From Bacillota bacterium (GTDB lineage Bacteria; Bacillota_I; Bacilli_A; Acholeplasmatales; Acholeplasmataceae), in the NCBI GenBank assembly GCA_018818645.1, contig JAHIRQ010000039.1, forward strand, positions 1 to 42,958: a stretch of DNA of 42,958 nucleotides, given 5' to 3'. The notes below the pieces were generated by a model. The model was not told where the DNA came from. It saw only the letters and a list, made by a program, of their open reading frames with translations, and did no database searches. A program made the position numbers and the translations under genes. Below, in pieces: positions 30,898 through 39,208 of this stretch. Each line of letters opens with the position of its first letter. Within the stretch, counting starts at the first letter, position 1.

Positions 30898-30921
30898 CAA
30901 TTTATTGAATCTCCTTATAAT
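30894..30921 (+). promoter_or_regulatory. Promoter TTGACA-16-TATAAT of antiporter leader
   Basis: Consensus hexamers; -35 overlaps the DUF1295 stop codon. Confidence 0.8.
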
Positions 30922-30928
30922 CAAACAT

Positions 30929-30986
30929 GGGAATGAACGTCTCCCAAAGTCAATGACTTAAACCGCAAACAGCTGATGACTTCTAC
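30929..30986 (+). ncRNA. Fluoride riboswitch (crcB motif)-like aptamer
   Basis: GGGA-ATGAACGTC-TCCC ... AAACCGC ... GCTGATGACTTCTAC matches crcB architecture (helix GGGA/TCCC, loop pairing GAAcGUC with GACUUC, GCUGAUG..CUAC). Confidence 0.82.
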
Positions 30987-31012
30987 AACATTTTTGTTGT
31001 AGAAGTCTTTTT
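30978..31012 (+). terminator. Intrinsic terminator overlapping aptamer 3' end (expression platform)
   Basis: GACTTCTACAAC-ATTTTT-GTTGTAGAAGTC-TTTTT; 5' arm is the 3' part of the aptamer. Confidence 0.9.
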
Positions 31013-31025
31013 CATAGGAGGAAAT

Positions 31026-32207
31026 ATGTTACTTTCAGCAGCTCTAATTATACTAACTAGTTTAATACTTTCACAAATCTTTATAAAATTAAAACTTCCT
31101 GGATTGATTGGAATGCTATTAACCGGGATAATATTAGGACCATTCGTTCTGAATCTCATTGACGATAGTATTTTGAATTTGTCAACAGATTTAAGACAGA
31201 TTTCATTAATTGTAATCCTTGTTCGAGCAGGATTATCTTTAGATCTTGAGGACTTAAAAAAGGTTGGTAGACCTGCTATTCTAATGGCTTTCATTCCCGC
31301 AACTGTAGAACTTTTAGCAATCTCACTGCTTGCTCCTATATTTTTTGATATTACATATCTTGAGGCATTAATATTAGGTGCTATCGTTGCTGCAGTATCT
31401 CCTGCAGTGGTTGTACCTAGAATGATAAAGCTCATGGAATCTAAATATGGTACAGAAAAAAAGGTACCACATCTCATTTTAGCTGGAGCATCGATTGATG
31501 ATGTTTATGTCATTGTTTTGTTTGCATCTTTTATACAAGCATATCAAACACAATCATTTCATGTTGCAAGCATTCTACTTATTCCCATTTCTATTTTATT
31601 AGGGGGGGTAATAGGAGTTTTATCTGGTATATTTTTAGTTTGGTTGTTTAAGGTTCTACATATCAGAGATACCCTTAAGGTTTTAATTATTTTCTCAGTT
31701 TCATTTTTATTTATTGTTTTGGAGCAATCCATTGCTCCTTATGTTCCAATTTCAGGATTAGTGGGAGTGATTATTCTAGGTGGAACCATCTTGAAGAAGT
31801 ATGATTTACTCGCTAAAAGATTAGTCAGTAAATTTGAAAAAATTTGGGTAATTGCTGAGATCATGCTATTTGTTTTAGTCGGTGCTGCAGTTGATATTAG
31901 AGTTCTTGTCAATGTAGGTCTTTTATCGATAATCCTTATATTTCTTGCATTAATATTTAGAATGATTGGGGTTTGGATTGCTTTAATACATACCAATTTC
32001 AATAAAAAGGAAAAGTTATTTATCAGTATATCTTATACTCCAAAAGCTACCGTTCAAGCTGCAATTGGAGCAATTCCATTATCACTAGGAATTGCAAGTG
32101 GTAATTTGATCTTAACAATAGCTGTCCTTGCAATCGTCATTACTGCACCATTTGGGGCTATCCTTATGGATAAAACTTATAAAAAACTACTTGTTCTAGA
32201 GAAATGA
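31026..32207 (+). CDS. Cation:proton antiporter (CPA/NhaP-like)
   Basis: Multi-TM; GLIGMLLTGIILGPF, LRQISLIVILVRAGLSLDLEDLKK, LGAIVAAVSPAVVVP. Confidence 0.88.
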   Translation: MLLSAALIILTSLILSQIFIKLKLPGLIGMLLTGIILGPFVLNLIDDSILNLSTDLRQISLIVILVRAGLSLDLEDLKKVGRPAILMAFIPATVELLAISLLAPIFFDITYLEALILGAIVAAVSPAVVVPRMIKLMESKYGTEKKVPHLILAGASIDDVYVIVLFASFIQAYQTQSFHVASILLIPISILLGGVIGVLSGIFLVWLFKVLHIRDTLKVLIIFSVSFLFIVLEQSIAPYVPISGLVGVIILGGTILKKYDLLAKRLVSKFEKIWVIAEIMLFVLVGAAVDIRVLVNVGLLSIILIFLALIFRMIGVWIALIHTNFNKKEKLFISISYTPKATVQAAIGAIPLSLGIASGNLILTIAVLAIVITAPFGAILMDKTYKKLLVLEK

Positions 32208-32346
32208 CTTCAAATTATCGATAAAAAAGTGTACAATATGAATATGGTATTCTTTTTTTTGAATACATAATCACATTTTGGTGATAGAATATTTAAGGTG
32301 TTTTCATTCTTTTACAATCAAAGATATAGACACAAGGAGAATTACT

Positions 32347-32763
32347 ATGAAAAGAAATAAGTTTGTTGTGATTGGTTCAGGACGATTAGGAGCGAACATC
32401 GCAACTAAAATGTCAGAACTTGGCGAAGATGTAATTATTATAGATGCTACTGAAGATTCATTTAGGAAGCTTCAAGAAACTTTTTCAGGCTATCAAGTCG
32501 TTGGTGATGCAACTGACTTATCCGTGCTTGAAAATTCCTATATCAAGCACGCAAAAGCAGTAGTTATAACAACCGACAGCGATAATGTTAATATTTTCTT
32601 ATCTCATATTTGCTATTATGTTTATAATGTACCTAAAATATTCGTCCGTTTGGCTGATACAGATAAAGGTCGTCTTTTAGAAGGCACTTATATAAAAGCT
32701 ATCTATCCATTCACTTTATCTTTAAATGAATTTATGAATTTAAGCGAAGTGGAGGAAGAATAA
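32347..32763 (+). CDS. TrkA-N (RCK_N) domain potassium uptake protein, no C domain
   Basis: KFVVIGSGRLGANIATKMSELGEDVIIID...GDATDLSVL; 138 aa. Confidence 0.88.
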   Translation: MKRNKFVVIGSGRLGANIATKMSELGEDVIIIDATEDSFRKLQETFSGYQVVGDATDLSVLENSYIKHAKAVVITTDSDNVNIFLSHICYYVYNVPKIFVRLADTDKGRLLEGTYIKAIYPFTLSLNEFMNLSEVEEE

Positions 32764-32764
32764 G

Positions 32765-33427
32765 ATGAAAATAGTCATTACTGGCGGAAAGCATGAAGCA
32801 GACTTTATTGTAAAAATGCTTCAAGAAGAGCATCATCAATTAATCATCATCAATCAAGATCGTGAATTCGCTGAATATATTAGTTCACATAATGATATAG
32901 CAGTATTTCCTGGTGACCCTACGAAAGCTTATACTTTATCAGATGCAGAAGCTCATAATGCTGATGTACTTTTAGCATTATCTGATAGTGACACAGATAA
33001 CTATATTACTTGCATCACAGGAAAAAGATTATTCAATATCAAAAAAACTGTTTCTAAGGTTAGAAACCCTAAAAACGTAGAATTATTCAAAAAATTAGGG
33101 GTTGACTCAGTCATTTCATCAACTTATTTACTAGCACAGACAATCCTAAATGAGTCATCAATTGAAAATATGATCAAGACACTTTCGATTGAAGACGAAA
33201 AGATTGTAATGATAGAACTTGGTGTTGAAAGTGATTTTGCTTTAGTCAATAAACGAATCATGGATATTCACTTTCCAAAAAATATTAATATTAGCTGTAT
33301 TTTTAGAGATCCACACGTCATTATTCCAAACGGGAATACAGTTATTAAAGCTATGGACAAACTTATCATCATCTCAACTCCAAATGAGAAAGATGAAATA
33401 ATCGAATTCATTCAAAAGAAAAGATAA
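32765..33427 (+). CDS. TrkA family potassium uptake protein (RCK_N + RCK_C)
   Basis: MKIVITGGKHEADFIVKMLQEEHHQLIIINQD...; C-terminal VMIELGVESDFALVNKRIMDIHFP. Confidence 0.88.
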   Translation: MKIVITGGKHEADFIVKMLQEEHHQLIIINQDREFAEYISSHNDIAVFPGDPTKAYTLSDAEAHNADVLLALSDSDTDNYITCITGKRLFNIKKTVSKVRNPKNVELFKKLGVDSVISSTYLLAQTILNESSIENMIKTLSIEDEKIVMIELGVESDFALVNKRIMDIHFPKNINISCIFRDPHVIIPNGNTVIKAMDKLIIISTPNEKDEIIEFIQKKR

Positions 33428-33429
33428 CT

Positions 33430-34923
33430 ATGAACAAGAAAATTATTTCAGGATATCCATTAATCATCAATTACTTAGGGATTTTTGCAATCCTTATTGG
33501 GTTGATCAATTTAATGCCACTGATTTTAATCCCATTTCGAATGGAAGATATTAGTGATGCATACCTTTTTCTATATCCTGGTGGCATCAGTATTTTCATC
33601 GGGTTTCTTATTGTTATGTACTTTAGGGGACGAGAAAAAGGGAAGCTTGAAAGAAACCAAGATGCTATTTTAGTTGTTAATATATGGATTATGGCGATTT
33701 TTGTTTCATCAATGCCATTCATTTTAACTGGGGATTATAATTTCACACAAGCAATATTTGAAGCAACAAGTGGTTATTCAACAACTGGATTAACAGTAGT
33801 CAATGTGACTTCGGCACCAAAAGCATTACTATTATTTAGAAGTCTCTTACAATTTTTTGGTGGAATTGGTCTTGTTTTAGTTTTAACATCAGCCATTTCT
33901 GATAAATTTGGAATGAGATTATATAGTGCTGAAGGTCATAGCGATAAACTAATGCCTAATCTAATTCGTTCAGGAAGAACAATATTATCCATATATGTTG
34001 GCTATATAACAATTGGGGTCATCTTTTATGTAATATTTGGAATGCCTATATTTGATGCAATCAATCATGCCATTTGTGCAGTTGCAACTGGTGGATTCTC
34101 TACACAACCCATGAGTATAGGTTATTATAACAGTGTACCCATTGAAATTGTGACCATAGTATTAATGATTTTAGGTGGTACAAACTTCTTTGTTCATTTA
34201 ATGCTATTACGTGGAAAAATGAAAAATGTATTTGGGCACGTGGAAATAAAACTACTTGGAATTCTACTTTTAATTGGTATTCCATTATTTACCTTGAACT
34301 TAATGACTGTATATGATGGAAACATTTTGCAATCACTACGTGTTGGAACATTTCAATTTTTTTCAGCTGTTACAGGTACAGGTTACCAAACTGTTGAATC
34401 CTTTATTGGAGTACTCACACCAAGCTTTTTCTTCTTTGGACTGATTATCTTAATGGTGTTAGGTGCTGGGATGGGTTCTACAGCAGGTGGTATGAAGCAA
34501 TATCGTGTCGCACTTGCTTTTAAGAGTATGTATTGGAATATTAAAGAGCAACTTTCACATAAAAAAACAATTCGCACTCACTTTATCAATAAGATAGGTA
34601 CGAAGACAATAGTAGATCGAGAAGATATTATATTCAATCATTCTTTCTTAATGATATATCTTGTTGTTTTAGTTTCAGGAACTTTAATTATTGCAAGTTT
34701 TGGATATTCACTAGAAAATTCACTATTTGAATTTGCATCAGCTTTAGGTACAGTTGGATTATCTGTTGGGATAACCGGTTATTCAGCTCACCCGGTGATT
34801 TTGTGGACATCAACAATTGGTATGTTTTTAGGAAGACTAGAATTCTATGTCATCTTTGTAGCAATTGCTAAAATCTATATGGATATCACTAAAAAGAGAA
34901 ATAATGAGAAAAAGACAAGCTAA
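33430..34923 (+). CDS. TrkH family potassium uptake protein
   Basis: EATSGYSTTGLTVV, CAVATGGFSTQP, SAVTGTGYQTV, GMGSTAGGMKQYR pore-loop motifs. Confidence 0.93.
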   Translation: MNKKIISGYPLIINYLGIFAILIGLINLMPLILIPFRMEDISDAYLFLYPGGISIFIGFLIVMYFRGREKGKLERNQDAILVVNIWIMAIFVSSMPFILTGDYNFTQAIFEATSGYSTTGLTVVNVTSAPKALLLFRSLLQFFGGIGLVLVLTSAISDKFGMRLYSAEGHSDKLMPNLIRSGRTILSIYVGYITIGVIFYVIFGMPIFDAINHAICAVATGGFSTQPMSIGYYNSVPIEIVTIVLMILGGTNFFVHLMLLRGKMKNVFGHVEIKLLGILLLIGIPLFTLNLMTVYDGNILQSLRVGTFQFFSAVTGTGYQTVESFIGVLTPSFFFFGLIILMVLGAGMGSTAGGMKQYRVALAFKSMYWNIKEQLSHKKTIRTHFINKIGTKTIVDREDIIFNHSFLMIYLVVLVSGTLIIASFGYSLENSLFEFASALGTVGLSVGITGYSAHPVILWTSTIGMFLGRLEFYVIFVAIAKIYMDITKKRNNEKKTS

Positions 34924-34950
34924 AATCGATGATTTTGGCTTTTTCTTTTT
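34918..34950 (+). terminator. Rho-independent terminator after trkH
   Basis: AGCTAAAATC-GAT-GATTTTGGCT-TTTTC. Confidence 0.75.
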
Positions 34951-35082
34951 CAGATGTAAACGCATTTTAATGTGATAAAATAGAGGTAATCATGCAAGAC
35001 ATCGTCGATATTTGCATCTTATCCTTAAACCCTTTTTTTATGAAAGATGAAGTACTATACTGTAGATGGGAGGAACTCCTGG

Positions 35083-35607
35083 ATGTTAAAAATCATTTGG
35101 AATAAAGATGATTTCAAAAGACTAGAATCGAAATTGTCTACTGAATATCATCTAGTCATTACCGATGATCCAAATGAAGTACCGGAAAATAAAGTTGGAA
35201 TAATTGTTGATGAAAGTAACATGGATCAAGTTAGACCCATCCTAGAATTGATGGCAAGACAAAAATCACAAATTATGTTGCAAACAGTTTCAGGATGGAT
35301 TCAGGTACATACAGAAGAGATTACCTATCTTGAAGCATTTGGAGATGAGATTTATATGCATCGGAATCATGACTCATCTCAAATCATCAAACAACCACTT
35401 TATCAATTAGAAGAATTGCTCAAAACACATCATTTTGTTAGAATTGGAAAATCTTATATAGTCAATATTACTAAAATTCGCTATATTAGAACAACATTCA
35501 ATGCAAAACTAGATTTAGAGCTTACTAACGGTACTCACCTTGAGGTTTCACGTTCCTTCGTCAAAGATTTCAAGAATGCTCTAGGCATTCAAAAAAAGGA
35601 GGATTAG
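35083..35607 (+). CDS. LytTR-domain DNA-binding regulator (no canonical receiver domain)
   Basis: WIQVHTEEITYLEAFGDEIYMHRN...LEELLKTHHFVRIGKSYIVNITKIRYIRTTFNAKLDLELTNGTHLEVSRSFVKDFK. ATG 35083 with GGGAGG. Confidence 0.88.
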   Translation: MLKIIWNKDDFKRLESKLSTEYHLVITDDPNEVPENKVGIIVDESNMDQVRPILELMARQKSQIMLQTVSGWIQVHTEEITYLEAFGDEIYMHRNHDSSQIIKQPLYQLEELLKTHHFVRIGKSYIVNITKIRYIRTTFNAKLDLELTNGTHLEVSRSFVKDFKNALGIQKKED

Positions 35608-35608
35608 T

Positions 35609-37651
35609 ATGACCTTAATCGGATGGTTAATCGTATCAGTATTATCAGCATTAGGTGTTTTCTTTGGTATCCAATTAATCAGGGATATCCTATGGAATAA
35701 AAAACTAGGCACATATAACAAATCAAGTGGTATTATTATACCCAAAATACCGAAAATCTATTGGTTGAAACGATCATATGGGTTTATTTTGACGTCTATG
35801 TTTGTAGCAACTACAGTTTTTTCAGGTGTATTTAGTGTTCCAATTATGCTTGGTGAGAAAGTGTTACTTAACGCAACCCCTGTTGGAAGTGCTGACACAA
35901 TTCGAAGTTTGATGGAGAGTCAACAAGGAAATTCATTTTGGGATTTCTTTATAGGTGGCGATCGTGTTATGGACGATATGGTTCCTGAAGCGAATCAAGC
36001 ACCAGTAGCAGGAACAAAGAAAGATTTCATTGATACCAATGTACAAGTTGAAGGTGTCGATGAAGCAGATATTGTTAAAACAGATGGAGATACCATATAT
36101 TATGCTGCAAGATATCAAAACATAGTTCGTGTGCTAACTGTAAATGACAATGGATTGGTAACCCAAGAAGGCAATTTAGATTTAGGCTTACTTTATACAG
36201 ATGCACTTTACTTAACAGAAACGCAATTGATTGTAATCGGTTATATTTATGACTATAGACCTTATCAGTATATTGATGGTTCAGGTGTTTATGACTATAT
36301 GTATACTGCATTTACAGGTGCGATTCGTATTTATGATAAAGAAACACTAGAACTTGAATATACTTTAGAAACAGATTCAAATTTTTATGAACATCGATTG
36401 ATTGGTAATGCACTTTTCTTAATTTCAAATAAATCACTATACAATGATGAATTAAGACCAATGTTTAAAGAGACAGTAGATGGAGATACAGTAACTAGCT
36501 ATCTGGGCTATGATGATATTTACTATTTTGATGGTGTTCCTGTTTATGGAATGACCGTCTTAACTGGCATCAACTTGGAAACCTTTGAAGTTAGCTCACA
36601 AGCATTTTTAGGTTATGTATCTGATATATACGCTTCAACAACTTCTTTATATACTGTTCAAAACTATTCTACCTATACGCTTGGTCAATACCAAAGTAAG
36701 GTTCAAGTCATTAAGTATAGTCTAGATACAGAAAATGCGAAAGTTACTTATGTTGGACAAAAAGAATTGTCCGGATATGTTAGCGATCAATACTGGATGG
36801 ATGAATATGATGAACATTTTAGAATTGTAACAAGTTCATGGAGTCCAATTCATAATGAACTACATATTCTAAAAGAAAATCCAGAAACTGATGAACTTGA
36901 TTTAGTTGGATCCATAACTCAAGGCTTAGGTCTAGAAAATGAAACAGTTAAGTCTGTAAGATTTAGTGGGGATAGAGGCTTTGTTGTAACATTTGAACAA
37001 ACAGACCCACTTTATACAATCGATTTATCAGATCCTAAAAATCCAGAAATCATATCGATTGAAAAAGAACCAGGATTTTCAACTTATCTACATGTTTGGA
37101 ATGATGAAAAGACAAACCTTATTGGATTTGGATTTAATGCAGATGAAAATGGTTGGGTCAATGGTTTAAGACTATCAGCGTTTATGATTAGTGGAACAAC
37201 AGAAGTTAAGAGTGATTCAGATGCAGTAGATTCCTATATACTAAGTTCAGAGGACGAAGATGGAATTTATTCATACTCATATTCTGAGGCATCCTATAAC
37301 CCGAAAGCAATGATTGTCTCTCCAGATCATAACATCATCGCATTTCCAGTCATGAGCTGGAAATATGATAGCTCTTGGAATTACACTTATGTCAGTCAAT
37401 TCTTAGTTTTCTATATTGATTTTGATGCAGAAGATCCAAGTGATATTATCAGTGATCCAATTGTTATCAGTCATGATGAATATGATTACTATTCTGGAAT
37501 TGATCGTGGTGTTTATATTGATGTATTTGGTAATTCAAAAGGCGTAATCTACACGCTTTCATTTAGTCAAATGGTTAGCTATGACCTAGCAACCAACGAA
37601 GTCATCGAAAGCATCTTGTTTGAAACGAATTTTGATGATGATGATAAATAG
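35609..37651 (+). CDS. Membrane-anchored secreted beta-propeller domain protein (PF09826-like)
   Basis: Two N-terminal TM segments, then NVQVEGVDEADIVKTDGDTIYYAARYQNIVRVLTV signature. Confidence 0.88.
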   Translation: MTLIGWLIVSVLSALGVFFGIQLIRDILWNKKLGTYNKSSGIIIPKIPKIYWLKRSYGFILTSMFVATTVFSGVFSVPIMLGEKVLLNATPVGSADTIRSLMESQQGNSFWDFFIGGDRVMDDMVPEANQAPVAGTKKDFIDTNVQVEGVDEADIVKTDGDTIYYAARYQNIVRVLTVNDNGLVTQEGNLDLGLLYTDALYLTETQLIVIGYIYDYRPYQYIDGSGVYDYMYTAFTGAIRIYDKETLELEYTLETDSNFYEHRLIGNALFLISNKSLYNDELRPMFKETVDGDTVTSYLGYDDIYYFDGVPVYGMTVLTGINLETFEVSSQAFLGYVSDIYASTTSLYTVQNYSTYTLGQYQSKVQVIKYSLDTENAKVTYVGQKELSGYVSDQYWMDEYDEHFRIVTSSWSPIHNELHILKENPETDELDLVGSITQGLGLENETVKSVRFSGDRGFVVTFEQTDPLYTIDLSDPKNPEIISIEKEPGFSTYLHVWNDEKTNLIGFGFNADENGWVNGLRLSAFMISGTTEVKSDSDAVDSYILSSEDEDGIYSYSYSEASYNPKAMIVSPDHNIIAFPVMSWKYDSSWNYTYVSQFLVFYIDFDAEDPSDIISDPIVISHDEYDYYSGIDRGVYIDVFGNSKGVIYTLSFSQMVSYDLATNEVIESILFETNFDDDDK

Positions 37652-37777: not shown

Positions 37778-39208
37778 ATGAAAAAAATAAGCTACATCGT
37801 CATATCAATCCTAATCTTAATTATACTTGCTGCATGTGATTATGTAGTGATCCCAAAAGATCCTGTCCCATTACCAGAAGCAGAAGTAATAGATTTTGAA
37901 AGATTATTTAATGATGATATTGAAAAGTCAATCACGATTGTGATTTCACAAAATGAGTGGGATAACCTAGATGATGTCATGAAAGCATATAACAGTCAGT
38001 TTGGAAATTATAGAACTGATTTTTATGCGCAAGCTGATTTCATATATAAGGATTTAGAAGGAGAATTTAGGATTCCTGATGTGGGATTTCGGACACGAGG
38101 GAATTTATCTAGAACTCGCATTCAAAATGATGATGATTCCTTAAATCTTTCACACTTTAAAGTTAAATTTAATAAAGATTTTAATCCACTCAATGACAAA
38201 AGAAAGGTGTTTGAAGTTGAAGAACTGGACATGAAATTTAACCGTAACGGTGATGATACCTATTTAACAGAGAAATTTTCAATGGATCTTTTTAATAAGA
38301 TGGGAGTTTTCGCAGCAAAAACAACTCTTGCAAAATTCTATATTCAAATCGGTACTACGACTCACTTTTATGGTATTTACACAATTTTCGAACCGATTGA
38401 TCAAGAGTTTATAGAGCGTCGATTAGAAAAAGTAGAATCTGATGGTAATTTGTATAAGTCGCTCTGGCAACAATTTGGACCAGCAAATTTAGGATTAAAC
38501 TATTCTGAAAATGCAATCGGAATCAAGGATGAATCGATCAATTATAGACCGGCATATGATTTAAAAACCAATAAAAAGATCAATGATCATACTGATTTAA
38601 TACTTTTTATACAAGAAATCAATCAAAGAACAGGTTCTAATTTCAAGCAATATATAGAGGATCATTTTGATGTCTCAATGTTTTTGAAATACCTTGCAGT
38701 AGGTGTATTATTAGGAAACCCTGATGATTACCGTGCAATGGGGAATAATTATTATCTCTATCACAATAACGTTGCAAACATCTGGACGATGATACCTTAT
38801 GATTACGATCATGGACTCGCTCAAGGTTGGGATGGTTCACCTGTATTCACCAATTGGACAATCAGTGCTGACATTTATCATTGGGGGAATTTAAACGAAT
38901 CCATTCTTAATATCCAAGATTACCCGCATCCTTTAGTAGATAAAATTCTTCAATTCTCAGAATATCAAGAAGAATATGAAGGATATTTAAAGGAACTTAT
39001 TGATCCAGCTAACGAATTGTTTTCATTTGAGTCGTTTAACGACCTCTATGAAAAACAAAAGGCTCTCTATAATGATGATGTTAACGATGCAATGATGGAT
39101 AAACCTTTTGGTTTAAGAAATGTAGAATGGTATTTTAATCAAAAGATTTTAGATATTCAAAGTCAACTGGATTACTATGAATCTAATCCTAGCTTACGAG
39201 GAACTTAA
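37778..39208 (+). CDS. CotH-kinase family lipoprotein
   Basis: Lipobox ILAAC; VGFRTRGNLSRTR...HFYGIYTIFEPIDQEFIERRL...GNLYKSLW...WTMIPYDYDHGLAQGW. Confidence 0.87.
   Translation: MKKISYIVISILILIILAACDYVVIPKDPVPLPEAEVIDFERLFNDDIEKSITIVISQNEWDNLDDVMKAYNSQFGNYRTDFYAQADFIYKDLEGEFRIPDVGFRTRGNLSRTRIQNDDDSLNLSHFKVKFNKDFNPLNDKRKVFEVEELDMKFNRNGDDTYLTEKFSMDLFNKMGVFAAKTTLAKFYIQIGTTTHFYGIYTIFEPIDQEFIERRLEKVESDGNLYKSLWQQFGPANLGLNYSENAIGIKDESINYRPAYDLKTNKKINDHTDLILFIQEINQRTGSNFKQYIEDHFDVSMFLKYLAVGVLLGNPDDYRAMGNNYYLYHNNVANIWTMIPYDYDHGLAQGWDGSPVFTNWTISADIYHWGNLNESILNIQDYPHPLVDKILQFSEYQEEYEGYLKELIDPANELFSFESFNDLYEKQKALYNDDVNDAMMDKPFGLRNVEWYFNQKILDIQSQLDYYESNPSLRGT

Follow-up and report, generated by a model that had tools for sequence, protein, structure and literature searches.

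The window analyzed here is a stretch of 42,958 nucleotides, positions 1 to 42,958 of contig JAHIRQ010000039.1, from a bacterium of the Acholeplasmataceae (assembly GCA_018818645.1). The source genome, 2.23 Mb in 194 contigs, holds a single PF09826 gene and two LytTR genes. The PF09826 gene and one of the LytTR genes are adjacent in the window, and the features found in and before them are the following:

34917..34941, + strand: intrinsic terminator belonging to the upstream TrkH gene, which it sets apart from the LytTR operon (11 pairs and a T tail; 0.1 expected in shuffles)
34993..35003, + strand: distal half-site TGCAAGACATC of a predicted LytTR site (repeat search)
35013..35023, + strand: proximal half-site TGCATCTTATC of the predicted LytTR site, 20 bp from the distal one, with 9 bp between the halves (repeat search; geometry as in PMC6193735)
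35033..35038, + strand: putative weak -35 box TTTTTT, 17 bp from the -10 box (read from the sequence)
35056..35061, + strand: -10 box TATACT of the LytTR operon, 32 nt past the repeat, its position kept in relatives
35068-35074: Shine-Dalgarno sequence GGGAGGA of the LytTR gene
35083..35607, + strand: LytTR regulator gene, 174 aa, TAG stop codon (ORF call and Pfam)
35609..37651, + strand: membrane beta-propeller gene, 680 aa (ORF, Pfam and AlphaFold2)
35615..35671, + strand: transmembrane helix 1, about residues 3-21 (hydropathy; AlphaFold2 helix 3-40)
35672..35782, + strand: basic cytoplasmic loop, residues 22-58, with a conserved N30..L33 motif; predicted contact with LytTR
35783..35839, + strand: transmembrane helix 2, about residues 59-77 (hydropathy; AlphaFold2)
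36032..37594, + strand: extracytoplasmic PF09826 propeller, residues 142-662; predicted sensor (Pfam and AlphaFold2)

The LytTR protein matches PF04397 at residues 72-167 (E 4e-23), which is its DNA-binding domain, and neither Pfam nor the structure model revealed a receiver domain, the mark of the response regulator of a two-component system. Its N-terminal part (about residues 1-61) has a beta-alpha-beta-beta-alpha order; a PDB search with the model returned LytTR domains only and nothing for this N-terminal part. One nucleotide separates the LytTR stop codon from the ATG of the propeller gene at 35609. The propeller protein gave a full-length profile match to Beta_propel, PF09826 (E 2.3e-96; 324 bits vs a curated cut-off of 22.4), and bears the signature VEGVDEADIVKTDG at residues 147-160. 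The loop between its transmembrane helices has 37 residues and a net charge of +7. Its AlphaFold2 model (pLDDT 90, pTM 0.87) shows helices at residues 3-40 and 49-71 with a short turn between them, followed by an all-beta domain; as modeled, the long helix 3-40 would extend out of the membrane. The nearest named relatives come from metagenome-assembled genomes of Acholeplasmataceae, the propeller protein of HGW-Tenericutes-2 being 83% identical. No solved structure of a PF09826 propeller was found by sequence search, and when the propeller model was compared with the PDB, all matches were generic propellers of low TM-score that did not reveal a function. In Pfam searches the two proteins showed no domains other than PF04397 and PF09826; DUF3021 and DUF2154, which characterize known subtypes of LytTR regulatory systems (LRS), were absent from the propeller protein. 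A preliminary description, made from the letters of the sequence, had reported a receiver-less LytTR protein ending 1 nt before a protein with two N-terminal transmembrane helices, a positively charged loop and a large beta-propeller with this signature, and it proved correct in every descriptive detail that could be checked.

LRS share a design for autoregulation in which direct repeats 11-13 bp apart lie about 10 bp upstream of the -35 box of the operon (PMC6193735). The preliminary description had suggested a search for LytTR repeats in the upstream region, where such a repeat was indeed present and showed the LRS geometry: in the 9-mer convention of Zou et al. the region reads GCAAGACAT-11 bp-GCATCTTAT-10 bp-(-35 TTTTTT)-17 bp-TATACT. 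Allowing up to 4 mismatches of 22, the repeat was found in 26 of the 27 upstream regions of family f1, the corresponding rates being 1.3% for dinucleotide shuffles and 4.8% for random stretches from the same loci, some of which may include the site itself. Most f1 regions also kept the -10 box at +32 nt from the repeat. The proximal half-site of family f16 is TGTANGATACC, again 32 nt from the -10 box in most loci where this half-site was clear, and the distal half has diverged; no clear repeat was seen upstream of some f16 and f5 operons. Among 20 genomes of the genus, 10 had a match without mismatches to the pattern of 20-bp period at the operon promoter; only one further such match lay elsewhere. 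Since sites without mismatches stand almost only at this promoter, the operon itself appears to be the main target. When a wider regulon was sought with patterns of 9 and 10 bp spacers, matches outside the operon were few, and their number mostly did not exceed that of the reversed-pattern control. The genus also conserves another -10-like box, TAAAAT, located about 17 bp before the distal repeat; in f16 this box falls between the two half-sites. It may serve as a basal promoter, one that LytTR bound at the repeat could shut off and at the same time activate the promoter downstream. In two genomes a repeat at almost the expected distance from a -10 box was also observed before a 168-aa gene with two transmembrane helices located between rpsD and tpiA (L231 in G017, L249 in G013); this gene is a plausible second target, and no repeat was seen before its homologues in other genomes.

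Upstream of the LytTR operon, positions 31026-34923 encode a Na+/H+-exchanger-family protein, two TrkA proteins and TrkH; this gene block is conserved in front of the pair in several f1 genera. At 30920-30992, directly before the exchanger gene, lies a fluoride riboswitch (RF01734, 38.2 bits), and the whole could possibly be a fluoride-controlled operon for an antiporter and K+ uptake. Downstream of the pair, a gene for a lipoprotein-like member of the CotH-kinase family (37778-39208) occupies the same place in several relatives.

The conservation of the pair was surveyed in Bacilli only, in 101 genomes (the source genome and its relatives) and 395 more drawn from the class. LytTR genes were searched in the genomes of the relatives and in those with PF09826 matches, and the two sets were joined by coordinates. 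PF09826 lay directly downstream of a same-strand LytTR gene at 64 of 163 places, in 24 genera and six families (34 in f1, 23 in f16, three in f5, two in f7 and one each in f19 and f24), so the pairing noticed in the preliminary description is conserved. This count includes related species and leaves out one case in which the two genes are 1451 bp apart. Nearly all pairs had gaps of -4 to +16 nt, and some propellers scored as unpaired reflect assembly breaks, as in G005, where the pair is split across two contigs. The pair is thus found in wall-less Acholeplasma-type bacteria and in several related families. Because it recurs in 24 genera, and the source genome has only one PF09826 and two LytTR genes, the adjacency is far beyond chance. 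The genes around the pair vary between families whereas the pair, its gap and the hairpin described below persist, and the pair is therefore the conserved unit. In a tree of 131 propeller domains the LytTR label was clustered in several clades, with 6 changes vs a mean of 42 after shuffling; the tree is a quick build with long f16 branches and does not fix the number of origins.

We fetched 119 loci, read the starts of their propeller proteins and classed the N-termini by hydropathy, the transmembrane and start calls being simple heuristics. Two transmembrane helices joined by a long basic loop (mean length 33 aa, mean net charge +6.7) were present in 55 of 57 LytTR-linked propellers, and the remaining two are start-calling cases. 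This hairpin occurred without an adjacent LytTR gene in two proteins only: one is truncated by the end of its contig, and in the other case, from G102, two inserted ORFs separate the propeller gene from a LytTR gene that belongs to the same subfamily and lies about 4 kb upstream. The association between hairpin and LytTR gave a Fisher p of about 5e-33, a value that ignores relatedness. Propellers not linked to LytTR were mostly lipoproteins. Thirteen others (L135-L141, L150, L170, L171, L173, L177 and L198) combine a single transmembrane helix with a cytoplasmic tail. Each of the 13 abuts or overlaps an ECF-type sigma gene, these neighbors being recognized by a regular expression, with 2 of the 13 recovered by Pfam. 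Pfam run on eight of these neighboring sigma genes found sigma-70 region 2 in all of them and region 4 in seven. The single-helix proteins are likely anti-sigma factors that bear the same outer sensor; they had escaped the preliminary description, and they strengthen the reading of the propeller as a sensor. At four loci of family f12 (L151, L154, L155 and L157) a sigma gene, a gene for a small protein with one transmembrane helix and a propeller lipoprotein gene stand in a row, often beside a second propeller with two transmembrane helices and a short loop. The one outer domain is thus combined with three kinds of membrane end, and each kind goes with its own output.

The hairpin itself carries further marks of its association with LytTR. 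The motif N..[LI] at the end of the first transmembrane helix was present in 54 of 55 hairpins vs 13 of 50 lipoprotein starts. Over all pairs, LytTR distances correlated with those of the hairpin with a rho of 0.70, vs 0.43 for the propeller, and within f16 the values were 0.60 and 0.36. Within f1, however, they were 0.80 and 0.82, so that there the hairpin does not co-vary with LytTR better than the propeller does. A two-helix hairpin exclusive to LytTR-linked loci fits a part that would face LytTR, and the basic loop would be the point of contact.

The systems nearest to the pair are the LRS of Streptococcus mutans, HdrRM, BrsRM and the SMU_433/434 type (PMC6193735). Like them, the pair in the window has a receiver-less LytTR protein, a downstream membrane protein in a putative operon and a repeat with 11 and 10 bp spacings. 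Its partner differs: the membrane proteins of S. mutans are small, four of five having DUF3021 or DUF2154 (PMC6193735), whereas here a two-helix hairpin bears an outer PF09826 propeller of 520 residues. As far as sequence can tell, the pair is thus an LRS in regulator type, operon layout and repeat geometry but does not belong to the DUF3021 or DUF2154 subtypes. In Listeria monocytogenes, lmo0984/0985 has been listed as a putative novel LRS with GCATCTTAG-12-GCATGTTAC and a 10 bp spacing (PMC6193735, Table 3). Its half-sites are nearly the same as those of the window and its 10 bp spacing agrees, a likeness that concerns the repeat; a propeller partner such as that of the window is not described for it in PMC6193735. 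The second LytTR operon of the source genome (L032:1200-2195, G000:C46) resembles the window in that its LytTR gene is coupled, at -4, to a membrane protein gene, but the partner there is a four-helix DUF3021-like protein (E 2.6e-4, below the Pfam cut-off). A repeat GCATCTTAA-12-GCAAGATAG lies upstream of it, about 33 nt before TATAAT, with half-sites like those of the window, and cross-regulation between the two operons would therefore be possible. ECF sigma/anti-sigma pairs also combine a cytoplasmic regulator with a tightly coupled membrane partner, which in the 13 loci above carries the same propeller. In the window the output is LytTR, and a hairpin takes the place of the single membrane helix with an N-terminal tail; no sigma factor gene adjoins the propeller gene, the neighbor being LytTR, and the anti-sigma arrangement is found in the single-helix class only. 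In a literature search that covered few subscription journals, one paper named PF09826; no regulatory role was found for the family, nor any report of this propeller with LytTR or an anti-sigma factor, and the novelty of the PF09826-LytTR pairing is not proven.

The LytTR and propeller proteins most likely form a so far undescribed system of signaling from the outside to the gene. Quite probably it is a new type of LRS, in which the hairpin holds LytTR inactive, the propeller senses the outside and LytTR activates its own operon. The reading of the propeller protein as the membrane partner of LytTR, put forward in the preliminary description, is supported by the results above, and inhibition and sensing would be its functions. 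The direction of control, the LytTR-hairpin contact and the signal are our inferences from characterized LRS and from the sigma-linked relatives; the sensor role is supported because the same propeller is found on the anti-sigma-like proteins. In the resting state the basic loop of the hairpin, with its N..L motif, would bind LytTR and keep it inactive at the membrane. A ligand, a protein contact or a change in the envelope or membrane would act on the outer propeller and LytTR would be released; it would then bind the direct repeat and activate its own operon in a positive loop. By analogy with LRS, the position of the repeat fits such positive autoregulation. The predicted output is a small regulon, made up of the operon itself and perhaps a few other genes.

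The same repeat would also sit at the operon promoter if the propeller were merely a target, with a stand-alone LytTR protein controlling the operon and the propeller working outside as an adhesin, scaffold or binding protein without acting on LytTR. The many PF09826 lipoproteins that have no adjoining regulator agree with this. A plain surface protein, however, needs no conserved basic hairpin exclusive to LytTR loci, and the sigma-linked versions carry a different cytoplasmic tail; we therefore hold this alternative to be unlikely. It is very unlikely that the membrane protein activates LytTR on receipt of the signal, so that LytTR would need engagement by the hairpin to become active. The anatomy fits both signs of control equally well, and inhibition is drawn only by analogy with HdrM, BrsM and anti-sigma factors, but the membrane proteins of characterized LRS are inhibitors (PMC6193735) and the sigma-linked relatives resemble anti-sigma factors.

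Two further alternatives concern the neighborhood. The pair could belong functionally to the upstream NhaP-TrkA-TrkA-TrkH block and report K+, Na+ or fluoride status. This block precedes the pair in f1 genera g1, g4, g10 and g15 and is headed in the window by the fluoride riboswitch, yet a terminator stands between TrkH and the LytTR operon, and the pair occurs without NhaP-Trk genes in other f1 genera and in f5, f7, f16, f19 and f24. The link to ion transport or fluoride was dropped because the block is found only in some f1 genera and is separated by the terminator, and we judge it highly improbable. That the adjacency is passive synteny of unrelated genes has next to no probability: synteny is strong within the genus, but between families the neighbors change while pair, gap and hairpin stay.

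Beyond this locus, we lean somewhat towards the view that PF09826 serves Bacilli as a general-purpose outer sensor, connected to one transcription output or another by a change of the membrane end alone: a basic hairpin for LytTR, a single helix with a tail for an ECF-type sigma factor (or a sigma factor, a small transmembrane protein and then a propeller lipoprotein), or a plain lipoprotein. On this view sensor and logic would be common to LRS and ECF systems, and the hairpin would be an 'anti-LytTR'. Anti-sigma factors with DUF3021 or DUF2154 were not found by Zou et al. 2018, who considered that this might set LRS apart from ECF systems (PMC6193735); one sensor domain in both links the two classes, which is a new point. 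LRS have received little study, their membrane parts are small and most of their signals are unknown; the large outer domain found here makes signal and transmission separable and each of them testable. The pair points, too, to a role for PF09826, which is a common family but little studied.

Layouts similar to that of the window were observed at L224 and L052 (G002), where other LytTR genes of the genus are followed by genes for proteins with two transmembrane helices, a basic loop and a different outer domain without an assigned family. A search with the hairpin profile did not detect these two-helix proteins, and they are therefore counted as similar in layout only. Upstream of L224 lies the repeat TGCAACTTATG-10-TGTAACATATG.
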